A stretch of 64,000 bases of DNA, from positions 1-64,000 of the IMG/VR virus record IMGVR_UViG_3300044716_000844, one strand, 5' to 3'. The notes beneath the pieces were generated by a model. It was not told the origin of the DNA, did no database searches, and saw only the letters and a list, made by a program, of their open reading frames with translations. This document shows positions 10,549 through 44,337 of this stretch, in pieces (the first letter of the stretch is position 1; each line of letters begins with the position of its first letter). The stretch comes from a virus. A program made the translations under genes and the position numbers.

Positions 10549-10550
10549 GT

Positions 10551-11201: not shown

Positions 11202-11211
11202 GGATTATACT

Positions 11212-16274: not shown

Positions 16275-16275
16275 A

Positions 16276-17940: not shown

Positions 17941-18526
17941 ACAATACGACTTATGGACTGCAAACATAGAAATTCATGATGACTTTATCACAGATAAGGT
18001 TCTATATGAGCAGCTGATCAAAGAATCATCTATCAGTAAAACGATAGATGGTCAAAATGTTTTGGGTCTAACACCAGCACAAAAACAAATCCACAATTTG
18101 GTTACGATGGTGGTCGTTAGTTATTGTATGCGGAATGGTATCGACTATGACAATCTGACGTTTACAGAACTGCAGAAGGGTTCTTTACACAAGTATGATC
18201 AAACCATGGTGAGTAATCACTTATATGAACCGCACGACGATCGAGTCGAGGGATCTTTCTTGACAGCTCTTTACTATATCGATAGTTCATATGATAAATA
18301 CTCTTCTAATTGGGTCGGAGGTGAACTGACCATTTACAAGAATCTGACGTTCGCTGAATACCCCAACAACTCTATCAATATCCTGCCCAAGCAAAACAGA
18401 TTGGTGATCTTCCCGGGATTCAATGTCCATAGGGTCAAACCGTACTTCGGTGACAAGCCAAGAACATCACTAGTGTTTGGATGGTCAGTTAACGATCAAC
18501 CACAAACCGAATCATTGACTGTATAA
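17930..18526 (+). CDS. 2OG-Fe(II) oxygenase, prolyl-4-hydroxylase-like
   Basis: A 198-residue protein with a complete facial triad: H102-x-D104 in YEPHDDRVEG, distal H167 in FPGFNVHRVK, and R178 for the 2-oxoglutarate carboxylate. The spacing and the GGELTIYKN strand match P4H-like phage hydroxylases. Members hydroxylate protein or free amino acids and need Fe(II), oxygen and 2-oxoglutarate. It overlaps the B12 radical SAM gene by 11 bases and is followed after one base by radical SAM gene 5. The target is unknown; the island's CHxx protein is a natural candidate. Confidence 0.85.
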   Translation: MTYKQYDLWTANIEIHDDFITDKVLYEQLIKESSISKTIDGQNVLGLTPAQKQIHNLVTMVVVSYCMRNGIDYDNLTFTELQKGSLHKYDQTMVSNHLYEPHDDRVEGSFLTALYYIDSSYDKYSSNWVGGELTIYKNLTFAEYPNNSINILPKQNRLVIFPGFNVHRVKPYFGDKPRTSLVFGWSVNDQPQTESLTV

Positions 18527-18527
18527 T

Positions 18528-19565: not shown

Positions 19566-20464
19566 GTATCAATCCTTCTTACTTCTGCAACTTTAGCTGT
19601 GACTTCTGTTATCTGACTGAATCACAACTTCGTGATTCAAAGAAAATAGAATTGAACCGGCTTGACGAACTTTTGAGTCAAGTGCCGTCGATCGAGCATA
19701 TCGATTTATATGGCGGTGAGATTGGTGCTTTGAAAAAAGACTACTTCTATGCAATGAAAGATGTTATTCGAAAGCATTATAACGGAGAGATCAACGTAAT
19801 TACGAATTACTCTATGATTCATGAAGGGTTCTATGCCGACGATGTGTATCTTTCAGTGTCATACGACTTTGCTGCTCGTGAGAAGTCTGAGCTCGTTTAT
19901 AAGAACATGCTTATGTCTCCGGTTCCTATTGCTGTACTCATACTTGCATCGCCTCAAGTTCTGAAGATGGATGTGGAAGAGATGATTAGCATGCTAAATC
20001 TTTGTTCCTCTATCGATTCAGTTGAGATCAAACCATATTCAATTAATCAGGCAAACTCGTATAATGTTACTCATCGAGATTACGAGAACTTTGTTATAAA
20101 GTGGCTAACCGCGTCTACACCCAAACGGTTTCGTTTTATAAACGAGGATCATATTCAAGATTCGTACGAAGGACTGTATAATGCGTTCTCTGATAACCAC
20201 GTCTACATAACACCGAACGGAAAATTTGGTGTACTTGAGTTCGATAAATATGACAAGGAGTACTTCTTAGAACTCGAGTCTTGGAACGAATACATTCAAT
20301 GGACTCAGAAAGAAAAGAACGAACTCAGCGATATATGTAAACAGTGTAAGTATTACGGTGGCTGTTTAACAGAACATTACCGATATGTCGAGAATTTAGA
20401 AAATAGTTGCAATGGTTACAAGGGTCTTTTAGATTGGTACGGTGAATGCAAGAGTGGAAAATAA
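19553..20464 (+). CDS. Radical SAM protein 6
   Basis: A 303-residue radical SAM protein, the shortest of the six. C12-x3-C16-x2-C19 (CNFSCDFC) and YGGE at 53-56 are intact. The C-terminus has C262-x2-C265-x5-C271 and C286, a reduced SPASM or twitch pattern that would hold one auxiliary cluster. It follows radical SAM protein 5 in a 13-base overlap, so the two may be made in equal amounts or work together. Substrate is not evident from sequence. Confidence 0.87.
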   Translation: MYTVSINPSYFCNFSCDFCYLTESQLRDSKKIELNRLDELLSQVPSIEHIDLYGGEIGALKKDYFYAMKDVIRKHYNGEINVITNYSMIHEGFYADDVYLSVSYDFAAREKSELVYKNMLMSPVPIAVLILASPQVLKMDVEEMISMLNLCSSIDSVEIKPYSINQANSYNVTHRDYENFVIKWLTASTPKRFRFINEDHIQDSYEGLYNAFSDNHVYITPNGKFGVLEFDKYDKEYFLELESWNEYIQWTQKEKNELSDICKQCKYYGGCLTEHYRYVENLENSCNGYKGLLDWYGECKSGK

Positions 20465-20841
20465 AGCAAGAGATATATCACAGACTTAACAATGAATATC
20501 GAGATGATTTAAATAACGTTGATATCGTTATAAGTAATGAGTACAACAATATCATTCGTCACTTCCACGAAAAAGTCGATCAGTGGATATATCCGGCAAA
20601 GAGTTATTTTGTAGCTGTATGTTATGCCAGTTGGATAGCAGAAGATTATAACGAAGATCTCATTGAACTTCTTAGAGATCCCATGTTACTTGCAGGTAAT
20701 GATCCATACTTTAAAACATACGATGAAGATCCTGAGACTTATGATAAGATATTAAGAGATATTGAGTTGCCATTAAAAATGAATGGCATGGTGCCAGATG
20801 TAAAGGAATATTATGATGAAGAGATTGCCTTTCGGATTTAA
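20446..20841 (+). CDS. Unrecognised island protein D
   Basis: A 131-residue acidic, helix-rich protein (MQEWKIKQEIYHRL at the start, NDPYFKTYDEDPETYDKI further on). It has a single Cys and no visible catalytic motif. Its start lies within the last 19 bases of radical SAM gene 6 and its end overlaps the next oxygenase by 29 bases, so it is part of the coupled chain. Its size and charge would suit a peptide-recognition partner or chaperone, but nothing in the sequence proves it. Confidence 0.6.
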   Translation: MQEWKIKQEIYHRLNNEYRDDLNNVDIVISNEYNNIIRHFHEKVDQWIYPAKSYFVAVCYASWIAEDYNEDLIELLRDPMLLAGNDPYFKTYDEDPETYDKILRDIELPLKMNGMVPDVKEYYDEEIAFRI

Positions 20842-21385
20842 CGATCTTTACCCGACTTCTGTGTATCTTTCGAAGATTAGTAAAGAAGACTGTGATACTA
20901 TATTAACTGGTGTGATGTCGAATGAAGTTGTTACATCGCCAAGTGATGATGACGCGTCACTTATCATACATAAGATTCCGAGACTGAAAGAACTTGCTGA
21001 AGAAAAGTTTGCTGAGTATCTTGATAAGGTATATGGTATAAGCATATACGACTATAACTTTAAATTTAAGTCATGGTTAACTGGTAACGGCGATGGGTAT
21101 AGTATGGATACACATAACCACGCAGGTGCACCGTTCGTTTCAGTCTTTTACATTATGGCGGAACATACTGATAAGGGTGGAGAAATTGTTTTCAACGATC
21201 CTCGAGTAAATGCAAACCGCGGATATACACTTGAGTTTCAACCACAGTTTAAGCCAACTGTTCATATGCCACAGACTGGTGATGTTGTAATTTTTCCAGG
21301 GTTTCTTTATCATCAAGTGAGAAAATATAATGCAAACCTTCGTATCGCTCTTCCAGTAGATCTATTCTTATACCATCAAGACTAA
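20813..21385 (+). CDS. 2OG-Fe(II) oxygenase-like protein, HxH type, last gene of the island
   Basis: A 190-residue protein of the phage 2OG oxygenase family with the HNHAGAPFVSVFYI element: H101-x-H103, then KGGEIVFNDPR, then FPGFLYHQVRKY with distal H167 and R177. This resembles the family in which HxHP precedes a SGVYY strand. AAGGA at 20803-20807 precedes two adjacent ATG codons (20813 and 20816); either may be used. It closes the chain: 61 bases of noncoding DNA with a late promoter follow. It and the gene at 15678 are the two HxH members of the island. Confidence 0.8.
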   Translation: MMKRLPFGFNDLYPTSVYLSKISKEDCDTILTGVMSNEVVTSPSDDDASLIIHKIPRLKELAEEKFAEYLDKVYGISIYDYNFKFKSWLTGNGDGYSMDTHNHAGAPFVSVFYIMAEHTDKGGEIVFNDPRVNANRGYTLEFQPQFKPTVHMPQTGDVVIFPGFLYHQVRKYNANLRIALPVDLFLYHQD

Positions 21386-28730: not shown

Positions 28731-31700
28731 GTGGCGGATAGAGATTTTCTAGTCAAAAATGGCTTAGTTGTAGCCAATGGCGATTTAACTATTGCCGATA
28801 AGATCGTACATTCTGGCGACACAAACACCTCCATTCGCTTCCCTGCTGCTGATACTGTGACTGTGGAAACTGCCGGAACGGAACGTATGCGTATTACCTC
28901 TGCCGGCAACGTGGGGATTGGAACAAATAATCCTACAACAACCCTAAGTGTCTATAACGCAACAACATCAATAATCTCGGTTTCAGGAGATAGTGGAACA
29001 GCCTTTATTGCCGCAAGAGCATCAAATGATACAACCGCACCGGGTGTAAACTTTAGAAAATACAGAGGTACTACTGCTACACCATTAACTGTAGCAACTG
29101 GAGACAATCTAGGTAATTCAAATTACATCGGTTATGATGGTTCGAGTTTAATAACCGCTGCACAGATAACTGGTATAGCAGAAGCAGTAGCCGGAACAGG
29201 GGATATAAGCGGTGCTCTTACGTTCTCTACTCGTCCAGCTGGAACTGGTACCACATCAACAGAACGCGTGAGGATTACTTCTGCTGGTAACGTGGGGATT
29301 GGGACAAATAACCCATCAACTAGATTAGATGTGAGTGGTACTGTTACAGCAACTGCTTTTGCTGGACCTCTTACAGGTGCAGTTACTGGTAATGCTTCTA
29401 CTGCTACTGCGTTGCAAACAGCTAGAACCATTTCTCTTGGCGGTGATCTTTCAGGTTCTGCCACATTTGACGGATCAGCTAACGTAACTATTACTGCTAC
29501 TATCGGCTCCAATTCAGTCGCTCTAGGTACTGATACCACTGGTAACTACGTCGCCTCTATCACGAACGGATCATATATTACTGGTGGTAATGGCGGTTCA
29601 GAAGGTGCAGCCCTCACTCTTGCAGTTGATGCCGCTACTGCTGCTACTGCATCAAAGGTAGTTGCTCGTGATGCAAGTGGTAACTTTTCTGCGAATACTA
29701 TTACTGCAGCTCTTTCTGGTAATGCTACTACAGCTACTACGTTGCAGAATGCTAGAACCATTGGTGGAGTTTCGTTTGACGGTTCGGCTAACATTAACCT
29801 TCCAGGGGTTAACGCCGTCGGCAACCAGAATACAACCGGAAGTGCAGCTACATTAACCACCGCAAGAACAATTGCGATTAGCGGAGACGTAACTGGTACT
29901 GCTACGTCGTTTAACGGCAGTGCTAATATTACAATCTCTGCAGATATCACTGCAAATACTATCGTAAATGCCGATATTAACTCTGCTGCAGCCATTGCTG
30001 ATACCAAACTTGCTACTATCTCAACTGCTGGTAAAGTGCTAAATTCTGCCACAACAGCCACAAGCGCAAATACCGCAAGTGCTATCGTAGCTAGAGATGC
30101 ATCAGGAAACTTTAGCGCTGGAACTATTACTGCTGCTCTTACTGGTAATGCTACAACTGCTACTGCGCTACAAACTTCTAGAACAATTGGTGGTGTTTCA
30201 TTTGACGGCTCAGCCAACATTAACTTGCCAGGCGTTAATACTACCGGTAACCAGAACACCACAGGGAGCGCTGCGACTCTTACTACCGCAAGAACTATTT
30301 CACTCGGCGGAGACGTAACCGGATCAGCATCGTTTAATGGCGGCTCGGATATAACTATAACAACTGAAATTTCGCCTACATCAGATATTGAATTCCGTAA
30401 CCTAGTTCTTTCGGGTAACCTTACCATTAATGGTACAACGACTACTGTTAGCGCAACTGAACTCGCGATTGAAGATAACCTTATCTATCTTAACGCTAAT
30501 AGCACTGTTACTAACCCAGATATTGGTATTGTTGGTAATTACAATGACGGCACATATGCCCATACTGGTGTATTCAGAGATGCAACCGATGGTCGTTGGA
30601 AATTCTTTAAAGGTTATGTTCCAGAACCAGGTCAGACAATTGATACTGCGAACAACACATTCCAATATGCAGATGTGCAGGCGAATACAGTTTATGCAGC
30701 TCTCAGTGGTAATGCTTCAACTGCTACTACGCTACAAACGGCAAGAACAATTGCAATTAGTGGGGATGTAACAGGAACGGCAACGTCGTTCAATGGTTCA
30801 GCTGACATTACCATCTCTGCCGGCATTACTGCAAATACTATTGTTAACGCTGATATTAATACTGCAGCTGCCATTGCTGACACTAAACTAGCAACTATAT
30901 CTACAGCAGGTAAGGTATCCAATTCGGCTACTACCGCAACAAACGCTTCGACCGCTAGCGCCATCGTGGCACGAGACGCTTCGAGTAACTTCTCGGCGAA
31001 TACTATCACCGCTGCATTAAGTGGTAATGCTACAACTGCAACTACGCTACAGACCGCAAGAACTATCGGCGGTGTATCATTCGATGGTTCAGCTAACATT
31101 AACCTTCCAGGTGTTAACGCTGTTGGTAACCAGAATACTACCGGCTCTGCTGCAACGCTTACTACTGCAAGAACCATCGCGATTGCTGGAGACGTATCTG
31201 GTACGGCTACATCATTTAACGGAAGCGCAGACATAACAATCTCTGCTGTAATTACTGCAGATTCAATCGTAAATGCTGATATCAATTCGGCTGCAGCGAT
31301 CGCTGATACGAAACTCGCTACAATTTCAACTGCTGGCAAAGTATCTAATTCAGCCACTACAGCAACCAATTTAAATACTGCTAGTGCTATTGTGGCTCGT
31401 GATGCAAGTGGCAACTTTACTGCAAATACCATCACTGCTGCATTAACTGGTGCTGCTTCAAGTAACGTGTTAAAAGCCGGTGATACGATGACCGGTAAAT
31501 TGAATCTTGCCGGTAATGATAGTGCTAGATTAATCGAAAGTCTAAACACCAGTGCTAGTAGTGCAGTACAGTTTTATGTCGAACATAACCTTGGCGCGAC
31601 AAATGTAGGAAACGCGAGGGGTGTACTCAATCTTGTAAGTACCGGCGCTCTAACAATTGGTGGAAGTGTTGCTCTTACTGCAAGCAACTTTAACACTTAT

Positions 31701-33863
31701 GCTCCAACGCTAACAGGTACAGGTGCTTCTGGTAACTGGGGCATCAATATTACTGGTAACGCCGCGACTGTTACCAACGGTGCTCTTACTACTGGAACAT
31801 TAGCTCAATTTGCCGCAACCACTTCTTCTCAACTTGCAGGCGTTATATCAGATGAAACAGGTAGTGGCGCATTAGTATTTGGTACCGCTCCAACATTTAC
31901 AACCACAATCGACGGTGGTGCGACATTCGGTGCATTTGCAAGTTCAACTGCGTTAACATTAGGTTATACTGGCACTGCAGCTTCTACAATTAATATTAGT
32001 ACAGGTGCAACAGCTACAGCCACAACAAAAACTGTTAACCTAGGTACTGGTGGTGCGGCAGGTTCCACCACAAACATCAATATTGGTTCAAATATTGCCG
32101 GCACCACAGCTATTTCATCGCCTACAATTACAATGGCAGGCGTAGTCGATACCGCTACAACGGCAACACACTACTATGTTGAAACATCTGGCGGTAATAT
32201 TGCACCAAAAACACTTGCGAATGCAAGAACTGAAATCGTTAATACTGCTGCGGTTAATGCCGCTGGAGCAACAACACTTGGTACGGTATCAGTTGGTACT
32301 TGGAACGGTAGTGTTATTAATGGCCAATATGGCGGCACCGGAGTTAACAATACTGGCCGCACAATCACGCTCGGCGGAAATATTTCAACTGCTAACTCGG
32401 TCACAACATCCGGCAACTTCGCTCTTACCCTAACAACAACTGCGGCTACGAACGTAACTCTGCCAACTACCGGCACTCTTGCGACTACTGACAACTTATC
32501 TCAATTTGCAGCCACCACTTCTGCTCAATTAGCTGGCGTTATCTCAGATGAAACTGGCACTGGTGTATTAGTATTTGGCACCTCCCCAACATTTACTACC
32601 GGCATCAATGCTGCTAGTACGACAATGGCGTTATTTGACACAACTGCAACTACTGTCAACTTTGCCGGTGCCGCTACTACAGGTAACTTCGGCTATGACG
32701 GCACAGCGGCTAGCACCACCAGACTTTCAACAGGAGCAACTGTTTCTGGTTCTACCAAAACTGTCAATATTGGTACTGGAGGAGCATCTGGTTCTACAAC
32801 AAATATTAATATTGGTTCAAGCACTCTCGGTGCATTAGGCACCACATACATTGACACTCCTATTGTACTGTTGTCGACCTCGACCGCGTTACCCGCGGCA
32901 AGACCCAAGGTAGGAGTTGGGGCGTACGCGCCGGCGACAATAGTCGGCGGAACCGACACCAGCGCCGTGCTTTCTATCGGCGGGACCGACTTGAGTCTAG
33001 GGGTCGGTGATAGCACTGGATCGCTTAGCTTCATCACCGAGAGTGCTTCTTACTTTGCGACGTATGCTGATGCTGTTACTGGTGAAATTGCTTCCATTTC
33101 GGAATCCGCTACAGGTGCTGCCTTTGGTCTTGCTTTCTATACCGGCACAACTACCGGTAGCAATCGCGGTGAACGGGTAAGGATCAGCGCCAATGGCAAC
33201 GTAGGCATTGGAACGACGAGTCCAGCCTCAAGATTAGATGTAAACGGTACAGCTAGAGCAACTTCCATAGTAATAAACGGTGGCACGCTTACAGCCAACT
33301 CTTCTGTAGGTACTGCTGGTCAAGTTCTAACATCGAATGGCACTGCAGTATATTGGTCAACGACAGGCGGCGCAGCTGTTTCTGATACTGCTCCAAGTAC
33401 TCCAACAAGCGGTCAACTCTGGTTTGATTCTTCTGATAACACAATAAACGTCTTCTATAATGATGGAACAAGTTCACAGTGGGTAAGCGCTGTGAGCAGT
33501 CAAGCAGACGCAGCATTTAGAATCAAGACTTCAAACTACACCGCATCAAACCGTGATAACATTATTGCAGACACCAGCGCTGGTGGCTTTACCGTTACTC
33601 TTCCGGCTTCTCCCACTGCAGGTCAATACGTTACGATTTACGATAATGCGAGTTGGGGAATTAACAATCTGACGATCGGAAGAAACGGCAGCACTATCGA
33701 AAGCCTTGCAGATGATTTTGTTATAGACGTCTCATCGATCAAAGTAGAGTTTATATATAATGGTAGCACTTGGCAAATCTATTCGTCTGTCGCACAGACC
33801 GGACCCGGAACAGCTGTTCCATCTCTCGATGAAGTCGCAGCAATAGCAATCGCACTAGGATAA
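28731..33863 (+). CDS. Giant repeat-built tail fibre-like protein 2 (1,710 aa)
   Basis: The start is GTG at 28731, supported by GGGGAGAG and the late promoter. N-terminus MADRDFLVKNGLVVANGDLTI, a common fibre start. Between about residues 300 and 900 the same sequence block recurs: IGGVSFDGSANINLPGVN, then TARTIAISGDVTGTATSFNGS, then NADINSAAAIADTKLATIS and IVARDASGNFSANTITAAL. NYNDGTYAHTGVFRDATDG sits between units. Towards the end are SGQLWFDSSDNTINVFYND and a C-terminal domain ending LDEVAAIAIALG. About 150 bases near 32.9 kb are much richer in G+C. Role: trimeric fibre shaft and tip. Confidence 0.87.
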   Translation: MADRDFLVKNGLVVANGDLTIADKIVHSGDTNTSIRFPAADTVTVETAGTERMRITSAGNVGIGTNNPTTTLSVYNATTSIISVSGDSGTAFIAARASNDTTAPGVNFRKYRGTTATPLTVATGDNLGNSNYIGYDGSSLITAAQITGIAEAVAGTGDISGALTFSTRPAGTGTTSTERVRITSAGNVGIGTNNPSTRLDVSGTVTATAFAGPLTGAVTGNASTATALQTARTISLGGDLSGSATFDGSANVTITATIGSNSVALGTDTTGNYVASITNGSYITGGNGGSEGAALTLAVDAATAATASKVVARDASGNFSANTITAALSGNATTATTLQNARTIGGVSFDGSANINLPGVNAVGNQNTTGSAATLTTARTIAISGDVTGTATSFNGSANITISADITANTIVNADINSAAAIADTKLATISTAGKVLNSATTATSANTASAIVARDASGNFSAGTITAALTGNATTATALQTSRTIGGVSFDGSANINLPGVNTTGNQNTTGSAATLTTARTISLGGDVTGSASFNGGSDITITTEISPTSDIEFRNLVLSGNLTINGTTTTVSATELAIEDNLIYLNANSTVTNPDIGIVGNYNDGTYAHTGVFRDATDGRWKFFKGYVPEPGQTIDTANNTFQYADVQANTVYAALSGNASTATTLQTARTIAISGDVTGTATSFNGSADITISAGITANTIVNADINTAAAIADTKLATISTAGKVSNSATTATNASTASAIVARDASSNFSANTITAALSGNATTATTLQTARTIGGVSFDGSANINLPGVNAVGNQNTTGSAATLTTARTIAIAGDVSGTATSFNGSADITISAVITADSIVNADINSAAAIADTKLATISTAGKVSNSATTATNLNTASAIVARDASGNFTANTITAALTGAASSNVLKAGDTMTGKLNLAGNDSARLIESLNTSASSAVQFYVEHNLGATNVGNARGVLNLVSTGALTIGGSVALTASNFNTYAPTLTGTGASGNWGINITGNAATVTNGALTTGTLAQFAATTSSQLAGVISDETGSGALVFGTAPTFTTTIDGGATFGAFASSTALTLGYTGTAASTINISTGATATATTKTVNLGTGGAAGSTTNINIGSNIAGTTAISSPTITMAGVVDTATTATHYYVETSGGNIAPKTLANARTEIVNTAAVNAAGATTLGTVSVGTWNGSVINGQYGGTGVNNTGRTITLGGNISTANSVTTSGNFALTLTTTAATNVTLPTTGTLATTDNLSQFAATTSAQLAGVISDETGTGVLVFGTSPTFTTGINAASTTMALFDTTATTVNFAGAATTGNFGYDGTAASTTRLSTGATVSGSTKTVNIGTGGASGSTTNINIGSSTLGALGTTYIDTPIVLLSTSTALPAARPKVGVGAYAPATIVGGTDTSAVLSIGGTDLSLGVGDSTGSLSFITESASYFATYADAVTGEIASISESATGAAFGLAFYTGTTTGSNRGERVRISANGNVGIGTTSPASRLDVNGTARATSIVINGGTLTANSSVGTAGQVLTSNGTAVYWSTTGGAAVSDTAPSTPTSGQLWFDSSDNTINVFYNDGTSSQWVSAVSSQADAAFRIKTSNYTASNRDNIIADTSAGGFTVTLPASPTAGQYVTIYDNASWGINNLTIGRNGSTIESLADDFVIDVSSIKVEFIYNGSTWQIYSSVAQTGPGTAVPSLDEVAAIAIALG
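29760..31118 (+). repeat. Codon-shuffled protein repeats in giant fibre 2
   Basis: The 18-residue string IGGVSFDGSANINLPGVN is encoded identically at the protein level at 29760-29813, 30186-30239 and 31065-31118. Copies 1 and 2 differ in 8 codons, and copies 1 and 3 in 9, all synonymously. Larger flanking blocks repeat similarly. Confidence 0.95.
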
Positions 33864-33873
33864 TGAGGAAATA

Positions 33874-36786
33874 ATGGGAAAGAAGCTTATTACAGATTAT
33901 GTGTTTACTCCAGGTTCAGCTGGAGTTGGTACTATCAGAATTCCTGGTAGATTCACACTTGAGAAATTTCTCGTAATCACTAACGTTACTCGCAACAAAG
34001 TTATTTACAACTTCGCGAGTACAGAATACTTTGGCACAGCCACTTCGTTCGTTACTGGAAACGATTCAGTTAACTTTCCAGTGATAACTGACAGACACGA
34101 CGGGTATACAGTCCTTACTCTTGCAGTCAGCACTTCGACACATAATGCTGCTGACCGACTACAGATCTTCATTGAAGATACCGAAAAGCACGTACAGATT
34201 AAACCATGGGACTTCGGTACTGACGCGATTGAAAGAATGCGAGTATCAAATCCAGAGTCACTCATCGACGCTGACTTTGAATACGGCCTTCAGCCAACGA
34301 AATGGGCTGGATACGGTACTGTTCGTGGTTATCCATCTGCGTATGAATTGCCAGGCGTGGATTTGATTACAACTGCAGTTACTACAGACTTTCAAACTAC
34401 AAGTACAACGAACAGCTTAATTACCGTATCTACATCTACAGCTCATGGTATTTCTGCCGGTCAAGTAATCAACATTTCAGCTCTCAACTCTGGAATTGCA
34501 GGATTTAGTAGAGCTGACGGTACATTCATTGTTAACTCTGCTCCATCTGGAAATACCGTCACGTATTTCGCGAGAGGTGTTGTTGGCGCATCAAGTGGTC
34601 AGTCGTTGCTTACAGATGCGACTGTGATGAAGCGAGGCGCGCTCTATTCAGGAGCATCGATACCAGTCGCTTCTGCAGCGAGTAACGGTGCTAACCCATC
34701 AGTAATTACCTTGACATTTACTAATCCACACGGATTAATTCCAGGTACAGCTATTCATGCTATCGTTGCATCTGGCACTAACGCTGCCCTTGCTTCCGGG
34801 CCGTTTGTTGTCACAAGCGTCCCGAGCTTAACCACGCTGACATATACGGCAAGAGCCGGTGGTGTTGTCGCAACCCCAGCGACTGTTACGTTGTACGCAT
34901 TTACAAATTCTACTATTATACATAGATCACAAGACGGTGGCGTTATTCTTTCAACTAAAACTCCAACTTACGGCGCGACTGTTGCGCGTCAGAGTAAAAG
35001 ATACTTCCGTTATCAATCCGGTAAAGGTTTCCTTTGGTCAACTGGAACTTTATTCAGACCAAACTATGATATTCGAAGTATGACTGCTTCTGGAACAACT
35101 GTCGGTTCCACAATTACCGTCACAACTGATGATATCGATCATGGTTTACAAATCGGTGCAGTTATACAAATAGCTGGATCAACCACTTCCGGTTATAACG
35201 GCACGTATACAGTAGCGTCTATTGTAAGTGACTACCAATTTACTGTAACGGCGACAAGTGTGCTTGGCGCAACTACTGCAGTACTAAACATTACCCCAAA
35301 GGTGTATGTAATAACGTGGGACGGCGCGGCGGTAAGAGCTGGATTATTTGACGAACAGAACGGGCTGTTCTGGGAATATGACGGTAGCATTCTATCGGTT
35401 GTAAAAAGAAACGCTACTGCTCAATTAAGTGGAACGCTTACGATTACACAAAACTCAAATGCTGTAACTGGCGCAAATACAAGATTTACTCAACAATTAC
35501 GAGCAGGTGATAGAATCGTCATTCGCGGTATGACTCATCACGTCATACAAGTAGTAAGTGATACGTCCATGTTCGTGTCGCCTGATTACAGAGGTGTTAA
35601 CGCTGCTGGTGTAAAGGGTAATTTAATTCAAGAAACACGAATTAGACAAGAACAATTTAACATTGATACGATTGACGGCACTGGACCAAGCGGATTCAAT
35701 ATTAATCTAAGCAAGATGCACATGGTAGGTCTACAGTATTCATGGTACGGTGCAGGCTTTGTTGATTTTATGGTCCGCGGTAGTGATGGTAATTGGATTT
35801 TTGTGCATCGCATGAAAAACAATAACGTCAATGACGAAGCTTACATGAGATCTGGTAACCTTCCAGTCCGGTATTCTATCGAAAACGACACGCCGGTAAC
35901 ATCTCTCACCTCTACCATTAACAGCTCAGTTACATCAATACCAGTTGCAGAACTAGCACACTTCCCAACGGCAGGAACGTTATACATTGATAACGAAATC
36001 ATTCGCTATAGCGGTAAATCTGCAGCGACTGGTGCTGGTAACTTGACTGGAGCTACTCGGGCAGCAACGCTGACCCAATGGCAAGCTGGTACTTCGTCCA
36101 ACTTTACTGCTGCAGCTGCAGCGAGCCATACCGCAGGCACGGGTGTAATTCTGATCAGTAACACATGTTCTCCAACATTGAGTCACTGGGGTTCTGCGTT
36201 GATCATGGACGGTGGATTCACAAAGGACCGCGGTTACATCTTTAACTATCAGCGGATCGGCTTGAGTCTTACGACTGCGAACCAAACAGCGTTCCTCATT
36301 CGCCTTGCGCCATCTGTGTCAAACAGCCAGGTTGGTGGTCTTGGGGTAAGAGATCTATTGAATCGTTCTCAGCTTCTTCTACAAGCGGTTGGTGTATCTG
36401 TTTCCGGTGGTACAAACCCTGGTGCTTGTGTTGTTGAAGGTGTGTTGAATCCTAAGAATTTCGCTAACGCGACATGGCTTCCATTAAACGTAGAATCTGC
36501 GGGTGGACAACCAAGTCTTGCACAAGTCGCGACTGCTGTGACTTATAGTGCGGGCACTGTTGCAGTACCTGGAGAACAGGTCTTCGCTTTTGCTGCTCCT
36601 TCTACCGCGTCCGGAGCCGTGAACGACAGATTAGAACTTACAGAATTGAAGGAATTGACCGGTGCTCCACTCGGTGGTGACTTCCAGTATCCAGACGGAT
36701 CTGATATTCTTGCGATCAATATTCGTTTAACCGCTGGTACTGGTCAAGGTCACGTTCTTCTTCGTTGGTCAGAAGCTCAAGCATAA
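33874..36786 (+). CDS. Virion structural protein (970 aa), fibre or baseplate type
   Basis: N-terminus MGKKLITDYVFTPGSAGVGTI, then KFLVITNVTRNKVIYNFAS and IKPWDFGTDAIERMRVSNPESLIDADFEYG, which resembles large marine T4-like virion proteins. The middle has repeated units of SVPSLTTLTYTA, beta sandwiches separated by Ser/Thr linkers. The C-terminus (AVNDRLELTELKELTGAPLGGDFQYPDGSDILAINI) is a folded domain. No enzyme motif is visible. Its length and place in the array suggest a fibre-attachment or baseplate-surface protein. Confidence 0.7.
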   Translation: MGKKLITDYVFTPGSAGVGTIRIPGRFTLEKFLVITNVTRNKVIYNFASTEYFGTATSFVTGNDSVNFPVITDRHDGYTVLTLAVSTSTHNAADRLQIFIEDTEKHVQIKPWDFGTDAIERMRVSNPESLIDADFEYGLQPTKWAGYGTVRGYPSAYELPGVDLITTAVTTDFQTTSTTNSLITVSTSTAHGISAGQVINISALNSGIAGFSRADGTFIVNSAPSGNTVTYFARGVVGASSGQSLLTDATVMKRGALYSGASIPVASAASNGANPSVITLTFTNPHGLIPGTAIHAIVASGTNAALASGPFVVTSVPSLTTLTYTARAGGVVATPATVTLYAFTNSTIIHRSQDGGVILSTKTPTYGATVARQSKRYFRYQSGKGFLWSTGTLFRPNYDIRSMTASGTTVGSTITVTTDDIDHGLQIGAVIQIAGSTTSGYNGTYTVASIVSDYQFTVTATSVLGATTAVLNITPKVYVITWDGAAVRAGLFDEQNGLFWEYDGSILSVVKRNATAQLSGTLTITQNSNAVTGANTRFTQQLRAGDRIVIRGMTHHVIQVVSDTSMFVSPDYRGVNAAGVKGNLIQETRIRQEQFNIDTIDGTGPSGFNINLSKMHMVGLQYSWYGAGFVDFMVRGSDGNWIFVHRMKNNNVNDEAYMRSGNLPVRYSIENDTPVTSLTSTINSSVTSIPVAELAHFPTAGTLYIDNEIIRYSGKSAATGAGNLTGATRAATLTQWQAGTSSNFTAAAAASHTAGTGVILISNTCSPTLSHWGSALIMDGGFTKDRGYIFNYQRIGLSLTTANQTAFLIRLAPSVSNSQVGGLGVRDLLNRSQLLLQAVGVSVSGGTNPGACVVEGVLNPKNFANATWLPLNVESAGGQPSLAQVATAVTYSAGTVAVPGEQVFAFAAPSTASGAVNDRLELTELKELTGAPLGGDFQYPDGSDILAINIRLTAGTGQGHVLLRWSEAQA

Positions 36787-36795
36787 GGAAATACT

Positions 36796-37011
36796 ATGCC
36801 AACTAGACTTAGTACGTTTATCACTGCAACGTCTCCAATCGGTGGAGCGACCGGAGGAGACGGCGATCGGGTATTTTTTGAGAACGACCAAACTGTTACT
36901 TCAAACTATACTTTAGGTACGAACAAAAACGCTCTTACAGCTGGTCCAGTAACTGTTGCAAATAGTGTAGTAGTAACTGTACCAACCGGTTCTTCTTGGA
37001 CGATTGTGTGA
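36796..37011 (+). CDS. Small fibre-associated protein
   Basis: A 71-residue protein, with VFFENDQTVTSNYTLGTNKNA in the middle and ending VVVTVPTGSSWTIV. The FFENDQTVTSNYT element is a frequent fibre-tip fragment; here it is a separate gene. Eight bases separate it from the next start. Likely a small tip or capping domain. Confidence 0.65.
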   Translation: MPTRLSTFITATSPIGGATGGDGDRVFFENDQTVTSNYTLGTNKNALTAGPVTVANSVVVTVPTGSSWTIV

Positions 37012-37019
37012 GGTGACAT

Positions 37020-37709
37020 ATGCCAATTAAAATCGAATCTCATCCATCTGCTTCTGGCATTTTTACGATTACAAATCCTAATAGTTCAACGCCAAGAGGT
37101 ATTACACTTCCTGATGCTACAACTACTTTGGTTGGTACTGATACAACTCAGACCCTGACTAACAAGACGCTTTCCGGTGGGACTGTGACAGGGGCGACGA
37201 TCTCTGGTAGCACTATCCAAGGCGGTGGGCTTACGCTTGGAACGGCTGTAGCTTCCACCTCTGGCACCTTTATAGACTTTACGGGTGTTCCTTCGTGGGC
37301 AAAGCGTGTGACTGTCATGTTTAACGAAGTTTCGACTAATGGAACAAGTCCCATAATAGTGCAGCTTGGGGATTCTGGAGGCGTTGAAACGACCGGATAT
37401 CTGTCAATGGTTGGGGCAAGAGACCCATCAGGCGGGGTTCTTGGCGCGCTTACCAGCACAGCAGGTTTTGCGACCCAGTATATTGGAGCAGCCACATCGG
37501 TCTTTAATGGAACCCTTCAACTTTCAAACCTGACCTCAAACACATGGGTTGGCTCCGGTGTTGGTAACAACAATACCACCACAGCATATGTGTACTTCTA
37601 CTCTGGCTCAAAGACGCTTTCAGCGACTCTCGACCGCGTCCGCATTACTATGTCAAACGGCACCGACACCTTCGATGCTGGCCTTATCAACGTCATGTGG
37701 GAGGGCTGA
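37020..37709 (+). CDS. Fibre-tip-like protein
   Basis: A 229-residue protein. N-terminus MPIKIESHPSASGIFTITNP, then the TNKTLSGGTVTGATISGSTI beta-helix-like repeats typical of phage fibres. A C-terminal beta-sandwich follows (FIDFTGVPSWAKRVTVMFNEVS, later KTLSATLDRVRITMSNGTDTFDAG). Bases 37160-37700 are visibly richer in G and C than neighbouring genes, suggesting that this tip was acquired as a module. Probably a receptor-binding tip. Confidence 0.7.
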   Translation: MPIKIESHPSASGIFTITNPNSSTPRGITLPDATTTLVGTDTTQTLTNKTLSGGTVTGATISGSTIQGGGLTLGTAVASTSGTFIDFTGVPSWAKRVTVMFNEVSTNGTSPIIVQLGDSGGVETTGYLSMVGARDPSGGVLGALTSTAGFATQYIGAATSVFNGTLQLSNLTSNTWVGSGVGNNNTTTAYVYFYSGSKTLSATLDRVRITMSNGTDTFDAGLINVMWEG

Positions 37710-37711
37710 GA

Positions 37712-38119
37712 ATGTCTACGCTAAGAGCTGATCAAATAACTAATTCTGCTGGTACCGGTGCTCCGTTATTTCCAAATGGTGCGAACCTTTCAGGCGGTGT
37801 ATCTATCGGTTATAGAAACATTCCTCCAGTTGGAACAAAAACATCTAGTTATACTCTAGCAGTAGGTGATGTAGGAAAGTATGTCCAAGTTGGAACTAGT
37901 GGTAGCATAACAATACCAAACGCTACTTTTAGCGAAGGTGACGCAATCACTATTTTTAATAACACTACAGGGAATATTACTGTTACATGTACCATTACAA
38001 CAGCTTATATAGCTGGAACAGATACAGATAAAAACTCTGTCACATTAGCAACCCGCGGAATAGCGAATATCTTTTTCATCAGTGGCACAGTATGTGTGAT
38101 TACAGGAAACGTTACATAA
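37712..38119 (+). CDS. Small fibre or adhesin-associated protein
   Basis: A 135-residue protein starting at 37712, preceded by GGGAGGG at 37699-37705. N-terminus MSTLRADQITNSAGTGAPLF, a common fibre start. The centre has GYRNIPPVGTKTSSYTLAVGD and GKYVQVGTSGSITIPNATFSEGD, a beta-roll of a type seen in phage fibres where it caps the shaft. Its stop shares a base with the start of the gp38-like adhesin. It probably carries or connects the adhesin. Confidence 0.65.
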   Translation: MSTLRADQITNSAGTGAPLFPNGANLSGGVSIGYRNIPPVGTKTSSYTLAVGDVGKYVQVGTSGSITIPNATFSEGDAITIFNNTTGNITVTCTITTAYIAGTDTDKNSVTLATRGIANIFFISGTVCVITGNVT

Positions 38120-38898
38120 TGTCAGGTATTATACAAATGATGTTAGGTGCGCCATTTGCCTCTGCAGCATTTTTGGCGACAATCTCTTCTAACCAAACAG
38201 ATCTCAATTTACGAACATGGGCTCTTGCAAATGGTTGGAATGGAACCGCACAAGCTACTATCACTGTCGGCTCAGGTGTTATTATATCTGGAAGTGTTCA
38301 GGGCAACAGCACTGCAGCATTGACGATTGATGGATCTTGGCCAGGCGGGATTACTCTTATCAATAGTGGAGTAATCGCTGGTAGAGGTGGAACAGGAGGC
38401 GCCGGCGGCAGTGCCTCTAGTACTAACGGTGTAAATGGAAATATTGGTGGCACCGCTTTGACTGTTAGTGTCTCTGCATCTGTAAACAACGCTGGGACAA
38501 TTGCTGGAGGAGGCGGAGGCGGGGGTGGTGGGGGCCTATCGCTTGGCGGAGCACCTGGCGGTGATGATAGTGTTATCTCGTATTATGGTGGTTGTGGTGG
38601 TGGCGGGGGTGCTTCTAGCAATACAACTGCTGCCGGAGGCGCTGCAGGTAGCAATGATGGCCTTCCAGGTGCCAGTGGCAATGCTGGTGGATCAGGAACA
38701 TATAATTCTGCGGGACTTGGTGGGACCAAGACACTACATGCTTCTGGAGGAAACGGTGGGTCTTGGGGTGCAACAGGGTCGAATGGCGGCGCTGGTAATT
38801 ATACAGCAGGTCTAGGCGGTGCGGGTGGTAGAGCTGTTAATGGTAATGCTAGCATAACTTGGATTGCGACTGGAACAAGATTAGGTTCTATAGTATAA
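38119..38898 (+). CDS. gp38-like polyglycine adhesin
   Basis: A 259-residue protein of the T2/S16 gp38 type. The N-terminal attachment region (about 25-80) has TWALANGWNGTAQATITVGSGV and ITLINSGVIAGRGGTGGAGG, as in gp38 proteins. Residues 88-240 are packed with Gly, including ten in a row at 130-139 and GGCGGGGGASS at 158-167. In known relatives such Gly stretches form a polyglycine-II sandwich that displays receptor-binding loops. The match is by motif and layout. It starts on the base shared with the upstream stop. Confidence 0.75.
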   Translation: MSGIIQMMLGAPFASAAFLATISSNQTDLNLRTWALANGWNGTAQATITVGSGVIISGSVQGNSTAALTIDGSWPGGITLINSGVIAGRGGTGGAGGSASSTNGVNGNIGGTALTVSVSASVNNAGTIAGGGGGGGGGGLSLGGAPGGDDSVISYYGGCGGGGGASSNTTAAGGAAGSNDGLPGASGNAGGSGTYNSAGLGGTKTLHASGGNGGSWGATGSNGGAGNYTAGLGGAGGRAVNGNASITWIATGTRLGSIV

Positions 38899-38908
38899 GG
38901 ATAAAAAA

Positions 38909-39157
38909 ATGGATTTGCAATACAATTATAAAATAATCAAAGTAGATGAAGAAAATAAAGTGATGGAGATAGTATATACTCCCCAAGAACCTTCACATCT
39001 AGGAGAATATACTGTCGGCGCAAGGCTGCCGTATGTAGGTGAGAGTTTAGAGTCTGTAGTACAGATGTATGCACCCCTAGGGTTGTGGCATCAACAAATA
39101 TACGAATTTGATACAGTAATTGAAGGATCTGAAGGATCTCTTATCTGCACTGTTTAA
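38909..39157 (+). CDS. Small conserved-style protein next to adhesin
   Basis: An 82-residue soluble alpha/beta protein: VMEIVYTPQEPSHLGEYTVGARLPYVGESLESVVQMYAP. Proteins with this MEI-YTP and RLP-GE pattern occur as short genes beside fibre genes in phages and may help assembly, but I cannot name the family. It starts ten bases after the adhesin. Confidence 0.55.
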   Translation: MDLQYNYKIIKVDEENKVMEIVYTPQEPSHLGEYTVGARLPYVGESLESVVQMYAPLGLWHQQIYEFDTVIEGSEGSLICTV

Positions 39158-39161
39158 AATT

Positions 39162-39785
39162 ATGAATATACATTTATTGAACCATCCGTTTCCTCACGTT
39201 GTGATATATGACTTTTACACTGAAAAAGAGTTAGAAGATATTAAGCACGAATTGAAGTTCTTGACTAAGCCCGATAAGTTGATGCCCCCGGGTATTATGC
39301 ATGGCGGAGGAGGACCGACTAATCATCACGCTCTATTGTTAGAGGATGCTTACACAAACAGAAAAATTTCAGACATACTTACTATATTCAAAAGAAAGTA
39401 TGATAAAAATCTTGTAGATTTAATAGTTGATAAGTTTCCTGAGTTTATGAAAATCAAACACATAAACAGTAGAATAACAAAAGTCAGATATTACTACAAT
39501 GATGATGCTTATCCTCCACATATTGATATTACTAGAGACTTTCTAGCATTTTCATATTTCCATTCTCACCCACGCAAATTTAGCGGCGGTGAATTACATT
39601 GCACTGATTACAATTATACTTTAGATTGTTCTGATAACGTATTTGTGCTACTACCGTCATATGTAAAACACGAAGTTTTGAAAGTACAAATAGAAGATGA
39701 CGCATATTTTAATGGTAATGGGCGATACTGCGTATCGCAATTCCTCGACGTGATCCCGCACCAAATTGATAAAAAAATTGCATGA
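39162..39785 (+). CDS. 2OG-Fe(II) oxygenase, P4H-like, beside adhesin
   Basis: A 207-residue protein from the ATG at 39162; an in-frame TTG at 39120 overlaps the upstream gene. The facial triad is intact: H120-x-D122 in PPHIDITRD, distal H170 in YVKHEV, and R188 in NGRYCVSQF. GGELHCTDY is the expected strand after HxD. It differs in sequence from the four island oxygenase-like proteins, and sits between the gp38-like adhesin and a sulfotransferase-like gene. Likely hydroxylates a virion protein or a glycan-linked residue; this is inference. Confidence 0.8.
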   Translation: MNIHLLNHPFPHVVIYDFYTEKELEDIKHELKFLTKPDKLMPPGIMHGGGGPTNHHALLLEDAYTNRKISDILTIFKRKYDKNLVDLIVDKFPEFMKIKHINSRITKVRYYYNDDAYPPHIDITRDFLAFSYFHSHPRKFSGGELHCTDYNYTLDCSDNVFVLLPSYVKHEVLKVQIEDDAYFNGNGRYCVSQFLDVIPHQIDKKIA

Positions 39786-40485
39786 GATTAAGCAAATATA
39801 TCACGTAGCAAGATGCGGATCCACTCTCATGGGTTCGCTTCTTTCAACAGTTTCTAAGACCTATCTCGAGCCTGAACATGGTATTGAGATGGCTAATACT
39901 GGAAAGATATACGATCAATACGAAGGTTCTGTAGTAAAATTTCAAAGCTTGTCTTTAATGAAACCTATACTGTTAAATGGACCAAAAGTATTTCTGTATC
40001 GGCCACTCGCTCAACACTTACACAAAATATCCAACGTACAGTCATATTGGTTAACCTTTCGGGCTGAATACTTAAGGACAAACTACAAGGAATATGACGT
40101 ATGGACTCCAACTTCTGATATAGAAATGATAGCTTATCACTGGATTCGATCAGTTCATGAGATGTCTCAACATACCAATGTGTTATGGATTGAATCGAAC
40201 AATTTGTTTATGCAACCAAAAATGACTATGGATTCTGTTTGTGACCATTTTAATTTTCCTAAGATTAGTGATTTTTCATTATCGCAAGTTGATGTTAAGA
40301 AAATGATGATCAACGGTAGATCTAGTGCGTGTGAGATAAATATAGCAGAAGCAACTCGTGTTTCAGTTGATCATGGCGTCATTCATACAAATGAAGCATC
40401 TACTGAAATTTTTAGTTTATGTAATATGATCGGAGAAACGTATAAGGTTTCTAATTCACTATTATACGGCAACAACGAATATTAG
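39766..40485 (+). CDS. Sulfotransferase-like protein
   Basis: A 239-residue protein with ARCGSTLMGSLLSTV at about residues 15-29, the 5'-phosphosulfate loop of PAPS-dependent sulfotransferases (the RSGSTLL type). Further on are HWIRSVHEMS and a C-terminal region like the 3'-phosphate binding part, but the last catalytic details are weak. The start is a TTG at 39766 or 39778, since no ATG fits. Its start lies inside the end of the upstream oxygenase gene, suggesting coupled expression. A sulfotransferase acting on a hydroxylated side chain would be a logical pair, but this is speculation. Confidence 0.6.
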   Translation: MIKKLHEIKQIYHVARCGSTLMGSLLSTVSKTYLEPEHGIEMANTGKIYDQYEGSVVKFQSLSLMKPILLNGPKVFLYRPLAQHLHKISNVQSYWLTFRAEYLRTNYKEYDVWTPTSDIEMIAYHWIRSVHEMSQHTNVLWIESNNLFMQPKMTMDSVCDHFNFPKISDFSLSQVDVKKMMINGRSSACEINIAEATRVSVDHGVIHTNEASTEIFSLCNMIGETYKVSNSLLYGNNEY

Positions 40486-40496
40486 GAATGTATTAA

Positions 40497-41462
40497 ATGC
40501 CAGTTACAATCAATGGAACAACAGGTATTGCTGGAGCAAACGGCTCTGCTACCACTCCAGCCGTGCAGGGCGGGGACAATAACACTGGTATCTTCTTCCC
40601 AGCAGCTGACACAATTGCTTTTGCTGAGGGTGGGTCCGAGGTCGCGCGGTTTGACAGTAGCGGGAACCTTGTTATTGGTACGACTACCGCACTCAAAAGA
40701 TTGACTACTGCTAGTAGTACTGATGGCGAAGGTATTGCCATTTGGAATCCAAGTACAGGTGCCACCACCGCCAAAAACACAAACCTCGCATTCTATTCAA
40801 CAGACACTGTTGGTACAACAAAAGAAACTGCTAGTATTATTACGGTTCTTGCTGATAGTAACGCTGTCAACAGTGCCCTTTCTTTTAGAACAAGAGGGTC
40901 TGACTCTAATACAGAACGCATGAGGATCGCCTCTACTGGTGATATAACTCAACTTAACGCTACATCTGGGGCTGGTGCTATTGTAGGCGAACAGACGTTC
41001 CGCCGGACGGCTGATGGAACTGCAATTGGACCTGCTATCGCTGACTTCTTTGGTGCTACTTCGGCGATATCATTAGAAGCATTGTCAGTTTACGAGATCA
41101 TAGCTTATCTAGTGTTTACGAAAACTACTGCCGGCACGATTACCCTTACTATGGCTGCATCATCTGCGCAGAATCGTATGGCAGGAATTTATATAGGATC
41201 GCCTCTAACTGGTATTGGTGCAGGCAGCCCACAGTGGGGCTCTGCAGGATCACAAGGAGCCACTACAGCCCCGTTTGTCACAACTGGTTCTCTTACTACT
41301 GGAGTTAACCATGTATTCCAATTAAATATGCAAGTACAAACGATACTTACATCAAGCTGGAGATTACAAATTACTAGCTCTGCTGGTACTGTAACACCTT
41401 TAGCTGGTTCATATTACACCGTGAAGAAGATTAGCGCCACAACCGGCACGTTTGTATCATAA
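40497..41462 (+). CDS. Tail fibre-like protein (321 aa)
   Basis: N-terminus MPVTINGTTGIAGANGSATT, then the NNTGIFFPAADTIAFAEGGSEVARFDS element and SNTERMRIASTGDI, standard fibre pieces. A C-terminal domain (about 200-321) is beta-rich (SVYEIIAYLVFTKTTAGTITLTMA, LTTGVNHVFQLNMQVQ) and looks like a lectin or C1q-like head. The gene starts eleven bases after the sulfotransferase-like gene. Confidence 0.75.
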   Translation: MPVTINGTTGIAGANGSATTPAVQGGDNNTGIFFPAADTIAFAEGGSEVARFDSSGNLVIGTTTALKRLTTASSTDGEGIAIWNPSTGATTAKNTNLAFYSTDTVGTTKETASIITVLADSNAVNSALSFRTRGSDSNTERMRIASTGDITQLNATSGAGAIVGEQTFRRTADGTAIGPAIADFFGATSAISLEALSVYEIIAYLVFTKTTAGTITLTMAASSAQNRMAGIYIGSPLTGIGAGSPQWGSAGSQGATTAPFVTTGSLTTGVNHVFQLNMQVQTILTSSWRLQITSSAGTVTPLAGSYYTVKKISATTGTFVS

Positions 41463-41471
41463 GGAATAATC

Positions 41472-43145
41472 ATGCCAATCAATTTTCCAAATACACCAGC
41501 AACAAATGACGTGTATCTCGCTCCAAACGGGATCGAATACATTTACACAGGTGCTAAGTGGACGCCCTTTAAACCGGTTGAGCCAACAATTGGTGTAATC
41601 ACTGCTTCGAGCCAACTAGACCTGTCTGCAGGTGGTACAAACCAAAACGTCGTGATCTCTCCATCTGGTTCTGGCAATATTCAACTTGCTGGAAATGTTG
41701 GCATCGGCACCATCACTCCAGCGACCAAGATGGAAGTTTCAGGCGATACGTCTCTCGCCTGCGTCTTTACGGCCACGGTCACGGACACAACCCTTGACGT
41801 AACCGCAGTCTCCAGCGGCGCTTTGGCTGTCGGTCAGTATCTGGGTTCTGCAAACGGTCGCGTCCGCATCACTGCGCTCGGCACGGGTACGGGTGGTGTC
41901 GGTACCTACACCATCGACACCAACCAGAATGGTCTTACGTTCAACAGAAGCTACGTTGCTGACCCCACGACAACGCGCTTGGGGAACTCGCAGGCATCCA
42001 TTTTCTCTAACATGCCACACGGGACGCTCGAGTTTGCTTCGGGTGTATCTACCGCCGGGCCGCGGGCCTACATTCAGGCTCAGGTGGGGCCAAGTACCCT
42101 CCCGACCCAGCTGGCAACTATGCTTTTCGGCGTCGGGGCCAATAACGGGGCTGCTCCTCCAAGAACTGCACTGAGCCTTGCTGCAACAGGCAGCTTGTTC
42201 CCAAGCGGCATATCCCTCGGTCAACCGTCTCTATCTCCACGCAATCTGAACATCGCCCCGGCTACGATTGTATTTGGCGGTCGTTCCCAGTCCATCTACA
42301 CGTCAGGTGCCAGCCTTTCCAGCCTCAACTTCAGCACCAGCTACATCGACGCCAGCGTGGAGACCACTGCCGCCTACGGCCAGATCGGCTACGTCGTAGA
42401 CAGCTCGATCACCTCGGGCCAGCTCCCGGCGAACTTCTACATCCAGACTCGCAACTCTGGTGGCGTACTAGCTGAACGCTTCCGTATCACTGCCACCGGC
42501 GATGTAGGTATTGGCACAACATTACCGACTGAAAAACTGGAAGTAGCTGGTAATATCCAAGCAATCGTCAATGGAGGAGCCTCATCTGTCCTCGCAGTGT
42601 CTGGAACATCAACAGACTACTCTTTTCTTCGTCTTCGTCAGACGGCTACAGAAAGTCGCATCGAGAGTGCTGCTGTCGGAACTGGTACGGCCTCTCCTAT
42701 TACATTTTTTGCTGGTGCCAGTGAACGATTACGTATCGCCTTGGCCGGGCAGCTAGGCATCGGCGGGGAGAACTATGGTACGTCGGGCCAAGTGCTGACA
42801 TCTGGTGGACCAAGCGCAGCACCGAGTTGGACTACATTGTCATCAGCAGCTCCAACAACTGCTCAAGTTGGTACTGCCACGGCGGGTTTAGCGGTTGGTG
42901 ATGTTGGTTCTTATGCACTCCTTTGGCATAATACTACTGCCGCAGAAACTCCAGGGACCACCGTTGCAGGATCAACCCTGCGCTATGCTAGTACTACCAC
43001 AGATGCAACAAACCCACTCGTCGGCTATGGCCCAACAGCTCCCGCTGGTACTTGGAGATGTATGGGCCATACCGCGGTGCAAGGCGGGGGCACCGCTTAT
43101 GCATTCACCATATCAAACGTAACAGTCTGGTTAAGGATATCTTAA
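41472..43145 (+). CDS. Tail fibre-like protein with GC-rich central module
   Basis: A 557-residue protein. N-terminus MPINFPNTPATNDVYLAPNG. A VGIGTITPATKMEVSGD element leads to about 230 residues encoded by bases 41740-42430 in clearly higher-G+C codons (GCC, GGC, CAG, CTC endings) than either flank. This central block (SNMPHGTLEFASGVSTAGPRAY and following) may be an imported module. The C-terminus returns to fibre-like repeats (FRITATGDVGIGTTLPTEKLEV) and a small tip domain (YGPTAPAGTWRCMGHTA). Confidence 0.75.
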   Translation: MPINFPNTPATNDVYLAPNGIEYIYTGAKWTPFKPVEPTIGVITASSQLDLSAGGTNQNVVISPSGSGNIQLAGNVGIGTITPATKMEVSGDTSLACVFTATVTDTTLDVTAVSSGALAVGQYLGSANGRVRITALGTGTGGVGTYTIDTNQNGLTFNRSYVADPTTTRLGNSQASIFSNMPHGTLEFASGVSTAGPRAYIQAQVGPSTLPTQLATMLFGVGANNGAAPPRTALSLAATGSLFPSGISLGQPSLSPRNLNIAPATIVFGGRSQSIYTSGASLSSLNFSTSYIDASVETTAAYGQIGYVVDSSITSGQLPANFYIQTRNSGGVLAERFRITATGDVGIGTTLPTEKLEVAGNIQAIVNGGASSVLAVSGTSTDYSFLRLRQTATESRIESAAVGTGTASPITFFAGASERLRIALAGQLGIGGENYGTSGQVLTSGGPSAAPSWTTLSSAAPTTAQVGTATAGLAVGDVGSYALLWHNTTAAETPGTTVAGSTLRYASTTTDATNPLVGYGPTAPAGTWRCMGHTAVQGGGTAYAFTISNVTVWLRIS

Positions 43146-43596: not shown

Positions 43597-44337
43597 ATGG
43601 CACAACCAACGACTAGAGCAGAATTTAAAGAGTGGTGCCTACGTAAGTTAGGTAAGCCTGTTATTGAAATCAACGTTGATGACGATCAGATCGATGATCG
43701 TATCGACGAAGCGCTCACGTATTACTGGGACTATCACTTCGATGGTACCGAAAAGATGTATGTCAAGCGCCAGGTCACTCAACAAGATAAAGATAACGGA
43801 TATGTTCCAGTCGCAGATAATATCATTGGTGTTGTAAACTTGTTCCCGATTCAAGGTAATTTGACCGGGTCCGGTATTTTTAGCGCGACATATCAATTTG
43901 TTCTGAACAACCTCCATGACTTTGTTAACTATGATCTAATCAACTATTATATGTCTTTCCAGTATCTTGCGTTCATGCAAGAGATTCTAACTGGGCGTCA
44001 ACCTATTCGCTATAATCGTCATATGAACAAATTATACATCGATATGAATAAAGACAAGATTGAAGTGGGAGACTTTATTGTATACGAATGCTATCAGGTT
44101 GTAGACCCTGCGGTGTATACAGATGTTTGGAAAGATCGTTGGTTGCAGAACTATGCAACAGCAAAGATCAAGTATCAGTGGGGTTCAAACCTCACGAAAT
44201 TCATCGGAATGAATTTACCAGGAAACGTTCAATTCAACGGCGAGAGAATTCTTCAAGACGCTCAAGAAGAAATCCAGAGAATGGAACAAGAGATGATTAG
44301 CTCATACTCACTTCCTGTCCATGACCTTGTAGGATAA
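43597..44337 (+). CDS. gp13: Neck protein gp13
   Basis: A 246-residue protein (T4 gp13 is 309). N-terminus MAQPTTRAEFKEWCLRKLGK and DDDQIDDRIDEALTYYWDYHFDGTEK match marine gp13 homologues; in T4, gp13 forms the neck with gp14 and closes the filled head. It leads the gp13-14-15-16-17 block, whose order is diagnostic. The gene comes right after a late promoter and ends four bases before gp14. Confidence 0.9.
   Translation: MAQPTTRAEFKEWCLRKLGKPVIEINVDDDQIDDRIDEALTYYWDYHFDGTEKMYVKRQVTQQDKDNGYVPVADNIIGVVNLFPIQGNLTGSGIFSATYQFVLNNLHDFVNYDLINYYMSFQYLAFMQEILTGRQPIRYNRHMNKLYIDMNKDKIEVGDFIVYECYQVVDPAVYTDVWKDRWLQNYATAKIKYQWGSNLTKFIGMNLPGNVQFNGERILQDAQEEIQRMEQEMISSYSLPVHDLVG

Follow-up and report, generated by a model that had tools for sequence, protein, structure and literature searches.

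The stretch of DNA analyzed here (the window) comprises bases 1–64,000 of a 95,586-base IMG/VR virus record. The virus reads as a T4-like myovirus of bacteria; the ORF at 43597–44337, judged from its translation, looks like the neck protein gp13. Photosystem genes were not found in the window's own record, and a cyanobacterial host for this phage is thus without support. Fiber-like genes form a run from 28731 to 43145, within which lie, in this order, a polyglycine adhesin, an 82-aa ORF, an oxygenase, and a protein carrying the motif ARCGSTL. A sequence-only reading of this DNA had placed these four ORFs at 38119–40485, and the ORF list contains all of them there. They are preceded by two fiber-like ORFs (37020–37709 and 37697–38119, with PHROG matches to structural or unknown families) and followed by two more (40497–41462, with PHROG tail fiber matches, and 41472–43145, assigned by reading only). 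These eight ORFs and the features located within them lie on the + strand.

The first of the four genes (38119–38898) encodes a 259-aa protein that had been called a gp38-type adhesin followed by a small protein. Both parts of that description stand: the protein scores 27.2 bits against Pfam GP38 (PF05268; cut-off 25), contains the glycine-rich motifs, and matches PHROG 2056 (“tail fiber protein; host specificity”), and the 82-aa ORF (38909–39157) comes next. Between the adhesin's glycine runs is the loop LSLGGAPGGDDSVISYYGGC (38536–38595); a script located an Asp-Asp in it, and the DDSV codons (38563–38574), which align with the pattern DDx[FWYVLI], mark a candidate modification or recognition site. 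In solved gp38 structures, receptor contact has been proposed for, or demonstrated at, the loops that separate the glycine-rich motifs (PMC6851490; PMC12892980). The 82-aa ORF has no family match in Pfam or PHROGs; a protein of a Limnohabitans phage resembles it weakly. In relatives, its slot holds a small protein of the MAHFAELD type, which is widespread near polyglycine adhesins or fibers (at least 592 confirmed matches, e.g., at loci L180–L259 and L173–L179).

For the third gene, we prefer the ATG at 39162 as the start (39162–39785), which gives a 2OG-Fe(II) oxygenase of 207 aa; a TTG start at 39120 was considered and set aside. Consistent with its earlier description as a P4H-like enzyme with an intact HxD...H...R signature, H120 and D122 (the HxD) and the distal H170 are invariant in a 38-member family alignment, and R188 is present. 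The window's protein scores 21.9 bits against PF13640, below the curated cut-off of 27; all 38 members of the alignment match this family, with E values of up to 0.01. Relatives of the oxygenase occur in 125 phage records.

The fourth gene (39766–40485; TTG start, with an alternative TTG at 39778) overlaps the oxygenase gene by 20 bp and encodes 239 aa. As a single query, the protein found no significant match in Pfam, NCBIfam, PHROGs, the PDB, or 50,697 phage records; single-sequence searches are blind to it, and it was detected only via a family alignment. A scan of viral contigs with the oxygenase alignment showed that the closest oxygenase relatives mostly have an ARCGSTL homolog directly downstream (phmmer E values of 1e-24 to 1e-32), and two further rounds of scanning with the sulfotransferase family itself reached 46 and then 79 viral loci. 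Twelve residues are invariant among 32 sequences: C17, G18, S19, T20, L26, E35, P36, F76, R79, L81, W126, and K178. Pfam Sulfotransfer_1 matches 8 of the 32 homologs (best E value, 6.4e-7; none for the window's protein) and Sulfotransfer_3 matches three, while a profile search of the PDB with the family returned a sole, weak match, the CurM sulfotransferase. An AlphaFold2 model built from the window's protein and 31 relatives has a pLDDT of 91.7 and a pTM of 0.89 (with ten sequences only, the pLDDT was 61.9). Each of the best 50 Foldseek matches of this model in the PDB is a PAPS-type sulfotransferase or a close structural relative of one, and VIA-align Z scores are 13.8 for CurM and about 12 for tyrosylprotein sulfotransferases (12.1 for TPST1). 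Values of dN/dS between pairs of relatives are ~0.11–0.24 for this gene and ~0.07–0.11 for the oxygenase, indicating purifying selection on both.

The sequence-only reading had recognized a PAPS loop in the ARCGSTL motif; the homologs, the fold, and the selection together rule out a chance motif. We regard the protein as established to be a PAPS-type sulfotransferase at the level of motif and modeled fold, and the enzyme class assigned to each member of the pair is almost certainly correct. By analogy to the family, RCGSTL (39811–39828), with its invariant CGST, is the predicted 5'-phosphosulfate-binding loop, Arg79 in FLYRxL (40000–40002) is proposed to bind the 3'-phosphate, and E35-P36 (39868–39873) is proposed as the catalytic-base region by analogy to TPST. 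The enzyme would thus be expected to use PAPS.

How regularly do the two enzymes occur together? Among 65 distinct sulfotransferase sequences, 61 are viral; two of the viral genes sit at a contig start, and the remaining 59 have a readable upstream ORF. From our reading of the gene tables, this ORF is an oxygenase in all but two cases: locus L107 has no oxygenase, and at L160 it lies one gene further up. Pfam detects PF13640 in 38 of 38 members of the window-type neighbor set (35 of which adjoin a sulfotransferase, the other three being cyanophage outgroups) and, in a second neighbor set, in 24 of 27, with one JmjC_2 protein in addition. The upstream oxygenases span several families, which fits the need for a hydroxyl-making step better than mere co-inheritance, and the overlapping or abutting genes suggest co-translation. 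At L090–L095 and L118, the oxygenase frame (~5457–6023) seems to be without its usual N-terminal start and lies beside an extended small protein, possibly reflecting a frameshift or truncation. No convincing match to the sulfotransferase family was found in GenBank phages, so the carriers appear to be uncultured.

At nine loci (L124, L129, L131, L132, L133, L134, L159, L167, and L169), the sulfotransferase gene is immediately followed by an APS-kinase-like P-loop ORF, and both of the two that were compared with the Pfam APS_kinase model pass its cut-off. These genes point to PAPS as the cofactor. L132, L134, and L159 also carry a nucleotidyltransferase-like ORF, and the two kinds of ORF suggest a phage-encoded supply of PAPS. 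An APS kinase was not found in the window's own record, and PAPS would therefore come from the host or be made by a missing part of the genome.

The genomic surroundings of the pair bear on what it modifies. The earlier reading had asked whether the pair travels with polyglycine adhesins in other phages or is absent from their adhesin loci. It is present on dozens of uncultured phage contigs and recurs beside such adhesins, in the group to which the window belongs, so that this much of the expectation stands; the association is not general, because another clade has the pair at the gp59/gp32 replication locus, and further copies lie among podovirus- or siphovirus-like genes. In the replication-locus clade (L112, L105, L050, L017, L103, L110, L114, and relatives, on cyanophage-like contigs annotated by reading), the pair is flanked by gp59 and the gene of a Cas4-like nuclease, with no adjacent adhesin. 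This clade is one reason to entertain an auxiliary metabolic role, in which the pair modifies a glycan or lipid of the host or phage surface, or a small metabolite, and the fiber genes are simply a hot spot of insertion. Glycan and small-molecule sulfotransferases are among the structural neighbors, and cyanophage 2OG oxygenases, for which large counts have been published (PMC9602691), have been interpreted as genes of nitrogen or 2OG metabolism (PMC3037559; PMC9602691). The genome scan also found sulfotransferase homologs in four Prochlorococcus single-cell contigs (L086–L089). Against such a role, most loci outside the gp59 clade sit among fiber or tail genes, and a DD motif in the adhesin loop, described below, tracks the pair; we consider the metabolic explanation unlikely, albeit the strongest of the alternatives weighed here. 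The four Prochlorococcus contigs look cellular by reading, and L088 has its homolog near psbC/psbD-like and cobQ-like genes.

The adhesins themselves were then compared. All 20 polyglycine ORFs directly upstream of the pair contain Asp-Asp, nearly all of them in the variable loop between glycine runs, and D41 and D42 are invariant within the loop in an alignment of 11 pair-adjacent adhesins. When 19 such adhesins, the window's included, were aligned on this position, DD was present in all 19 and a hydrophobic residue stood at +3, with a mean identity of 25% elsewhere; DD and +3 belong to the search pattern, and the informative part of this result is the universal occurrence of the motif in the group despite its varying surroundings. 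Among adhesins retrieved with one model, DDx[FWYVLI] occurs in 18 of 18 pair-adjacent proteins but in only 1 of the 34 that lack the pair, this single instance lying outside the loop. The associated Fisher p value of 4e-13 overstates the independence of the data: the adhesins share ancestry, and the motif was chosen with the data already in view. Four contigs allow a comparison within a contig: the loop of the pair-adjacent adhesin contains the motif, whereas the loops of the further polyglycine adhesins lack it.

Searches with whole polyglycine proteins found little, probably owing to low-complexity filtering, and were replaced by searches with the small protein and with a DNA pattern. The latter, which was blind to the enzymes, yielded about eight distinct glycine-rich adhesins in which a DDDF loop precedes a glycine run; about six of these are on contigs with the pair. 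For the other two types (L281 and L265/L291), the pair was not detected near the adhesin in the DNA examined; their loops may carry another modification or be plain binding sites. The A7 adhesin model had no match on seven of eight further records, which included gp59-locus and podovirus contigs, and fibers of the L124/L129 type lack the motif next to glycine runs. The L115 adhesin, which adjoins the sulfotransferase paired with a JmjC_2 protein, reads DDNE rather than DDx[hydrophobic].

The two DDDF-loop types without the pair raise the question of whether the DD loop simply binds a metal or the receptor, with no modification, in an adhesin lineage that travels with the pair by chance, as adhesin lineages can be co-inherited with their neighbors. 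We judge this improbable: the context of the loop is otherwise saturated with change, and the motif is common to unlike adhesin types, the window's among them. Nonetheless, those two types, the replication-locus clade, and the DDNE of L115 call for caution in reading the loop as the target, and the motif-free L124/L129-type fibers and the oxygenase-free L107 limit our confidence further.

The explanation we prefer, to which we assign about an even chance, is that the pair is a two-enzyme tailoring cassette for a receptor-binding protein of the virion. In the first step, the 2OG-Fe(II) oxygenase would hydroxylate a side chain; in the second, the PAPS-dependent sulfotransferase would sulfate the new hydroxyl. 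Sulfation requires a hydroxyl group, which Asp lacks and would gain only through the action of an oxygenase. Such a dependence would explain both the near-constant pairing and the variable family of the oxygenase, and it favors the order oxygenase first, sulfotransferase second. The parts of this proposal differ in strength. The two enzymes probably share a common substrate, and this substrate is somewhat more likely than its alternatives to be the adhesin or fiber. For pairs located downstream of a polyglycine adhesin, the likeliest site would be DDx[hydrophobic] in the hypervariable loop, an assignment that is plausible at a little below even chances. The modified residue may be Asp, hydroxylated and then O-sulfated, but sulfo-hydroxyaspartate as the product is a tentative suggestion. 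The outcome would be a charged, sulfated tip with altered receptor binding. The present analysis supports the fold of the sulfotransferase, the intact ligands of the oxygenase, the conserved adjacency of their genes, and the link with the adhesin loop; we infer that both enzymes are active, which of them acts first, that the adhesin is modified and at which residue, and that adsorption changes as a result.

Could the sulfotransferase instead act on tyrosine in the acidic loop, in the manner of TPST, with the oxygenase modifying a separate residue? TPST1 and TPST2 are among its best structural matches (Z ~12), and many loops have Tyr near acidic residues, the window's loop having YY. However, it is DD and not Tyr that is conserved in the loops, and in those of L016 and L010 the stretch from DD to the glycine run is free of Tyr. 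Tyrosine sulfation would also leave the strict pairing with an oxygenase unexplained, and we consider it a poor prospect, on a par with, or slightly behind, the unmodified binding site. In its fullest form, the tailoring proposal gives uncultured phages a pathway devoted to hydroxylation and sulfation, which in some includes APS kinase. Its product, a sulfated hydroxy-amino acid and possibly sulfo-hydroxyaspartate, would occupy a fixed acidic position within the hypervariable receptor-binding loop of their adhesins. In this complete form, the proposal is speculative.

Cyanophages and their relatives carry many 2OG oxygenases, which are usually read as metabolic genes. Together with the acidic adhesin site, their tight pairing with a sulfotransferase beside fiber genes suggests an alternative that can be tested directly: phages chemically tailor their own receptor-binding proteins. 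If true, protein hydroxylation and sulfation would join the means by which phages alter adsorption. Other oxygenase-rich regions were also seen. At 9051–21385, the window has an array in which six radical-SAM-like ORFs, one of them with a B12-binding domain, are interspersed with oxygenases of the cupin/JmjC and 2OG types; all ten of the ORFs tested in this array match Pfam Radical_SAM or a 2OG/cupin family. The ORF at 10551–11201 ends in CHASCHANCHSSRGRR, which resembles the tail of a modified-peptide substrate. The fiber-region genes of isolated cyanophages and a pelagiphage (L173, L174, L179, and L176) adjoin series of 2OG- and PhyH-type oxygenase genes and a ferrochelatase-like gene.

The sequence-only reading was aware of no known case, and the literature that we searched likewise describes neither the pair nor the sulfation of tail fibers by phages, an absence that the partial coverage makes weak. 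The enzyme folds and the adhesin are known already, and it is the conserved arrangement that we have not found described. Like the CurM ST domain (4gbm), TPST1/2, and the Pfam families Sulfotransfer_1 and Sulfotransfer_3, the phage sulfotransferase has the PAPS-dependent fold across nearly the whole model, a G-S-T 5'-phosphosulfate loop, and an invariant Glu and an invariant Arg whose positions would suit an active site. It differs in being shorter (~240 aa) and only ~8–16% identical; the residue before CGST in relatives is usually His, Tyr, Gln, Phe, Asn, or Ser instead of Arg, and a Lys stands where a Ser that binds the 3'-phosphate would be expected. Phage-encoded sulfotransferases have been noted before, with their function called unclear (PMC10580990). 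Those of OM43 phages are of the Sulfotransfer_3 type, unlike the present family, and others are encoded by S-SRM01 and S-SCSM1; the S-SCSM1 protein is the best BFVD fold match of the window-type protein, but shares only 13% identity with it. The oxygenase has the same HxD...H ligands as the PF13640 oxygenases of cyanomyoviruses (~27–42% identity among the matches listed), yet in the isolates inspected no sulfotransferase of the window's family follows those genes. Finally, the adhesin shares with the gp38 proteins of T2/S16/PP01-type phages a place at the tail-fiber tip and polyglycine runs split by hypervariable loops. The portions of the gp38 literature available to us report no enzyme pair with those adhesins, and the pair-linked adhesins described here are set apart by their aligned DD motif.
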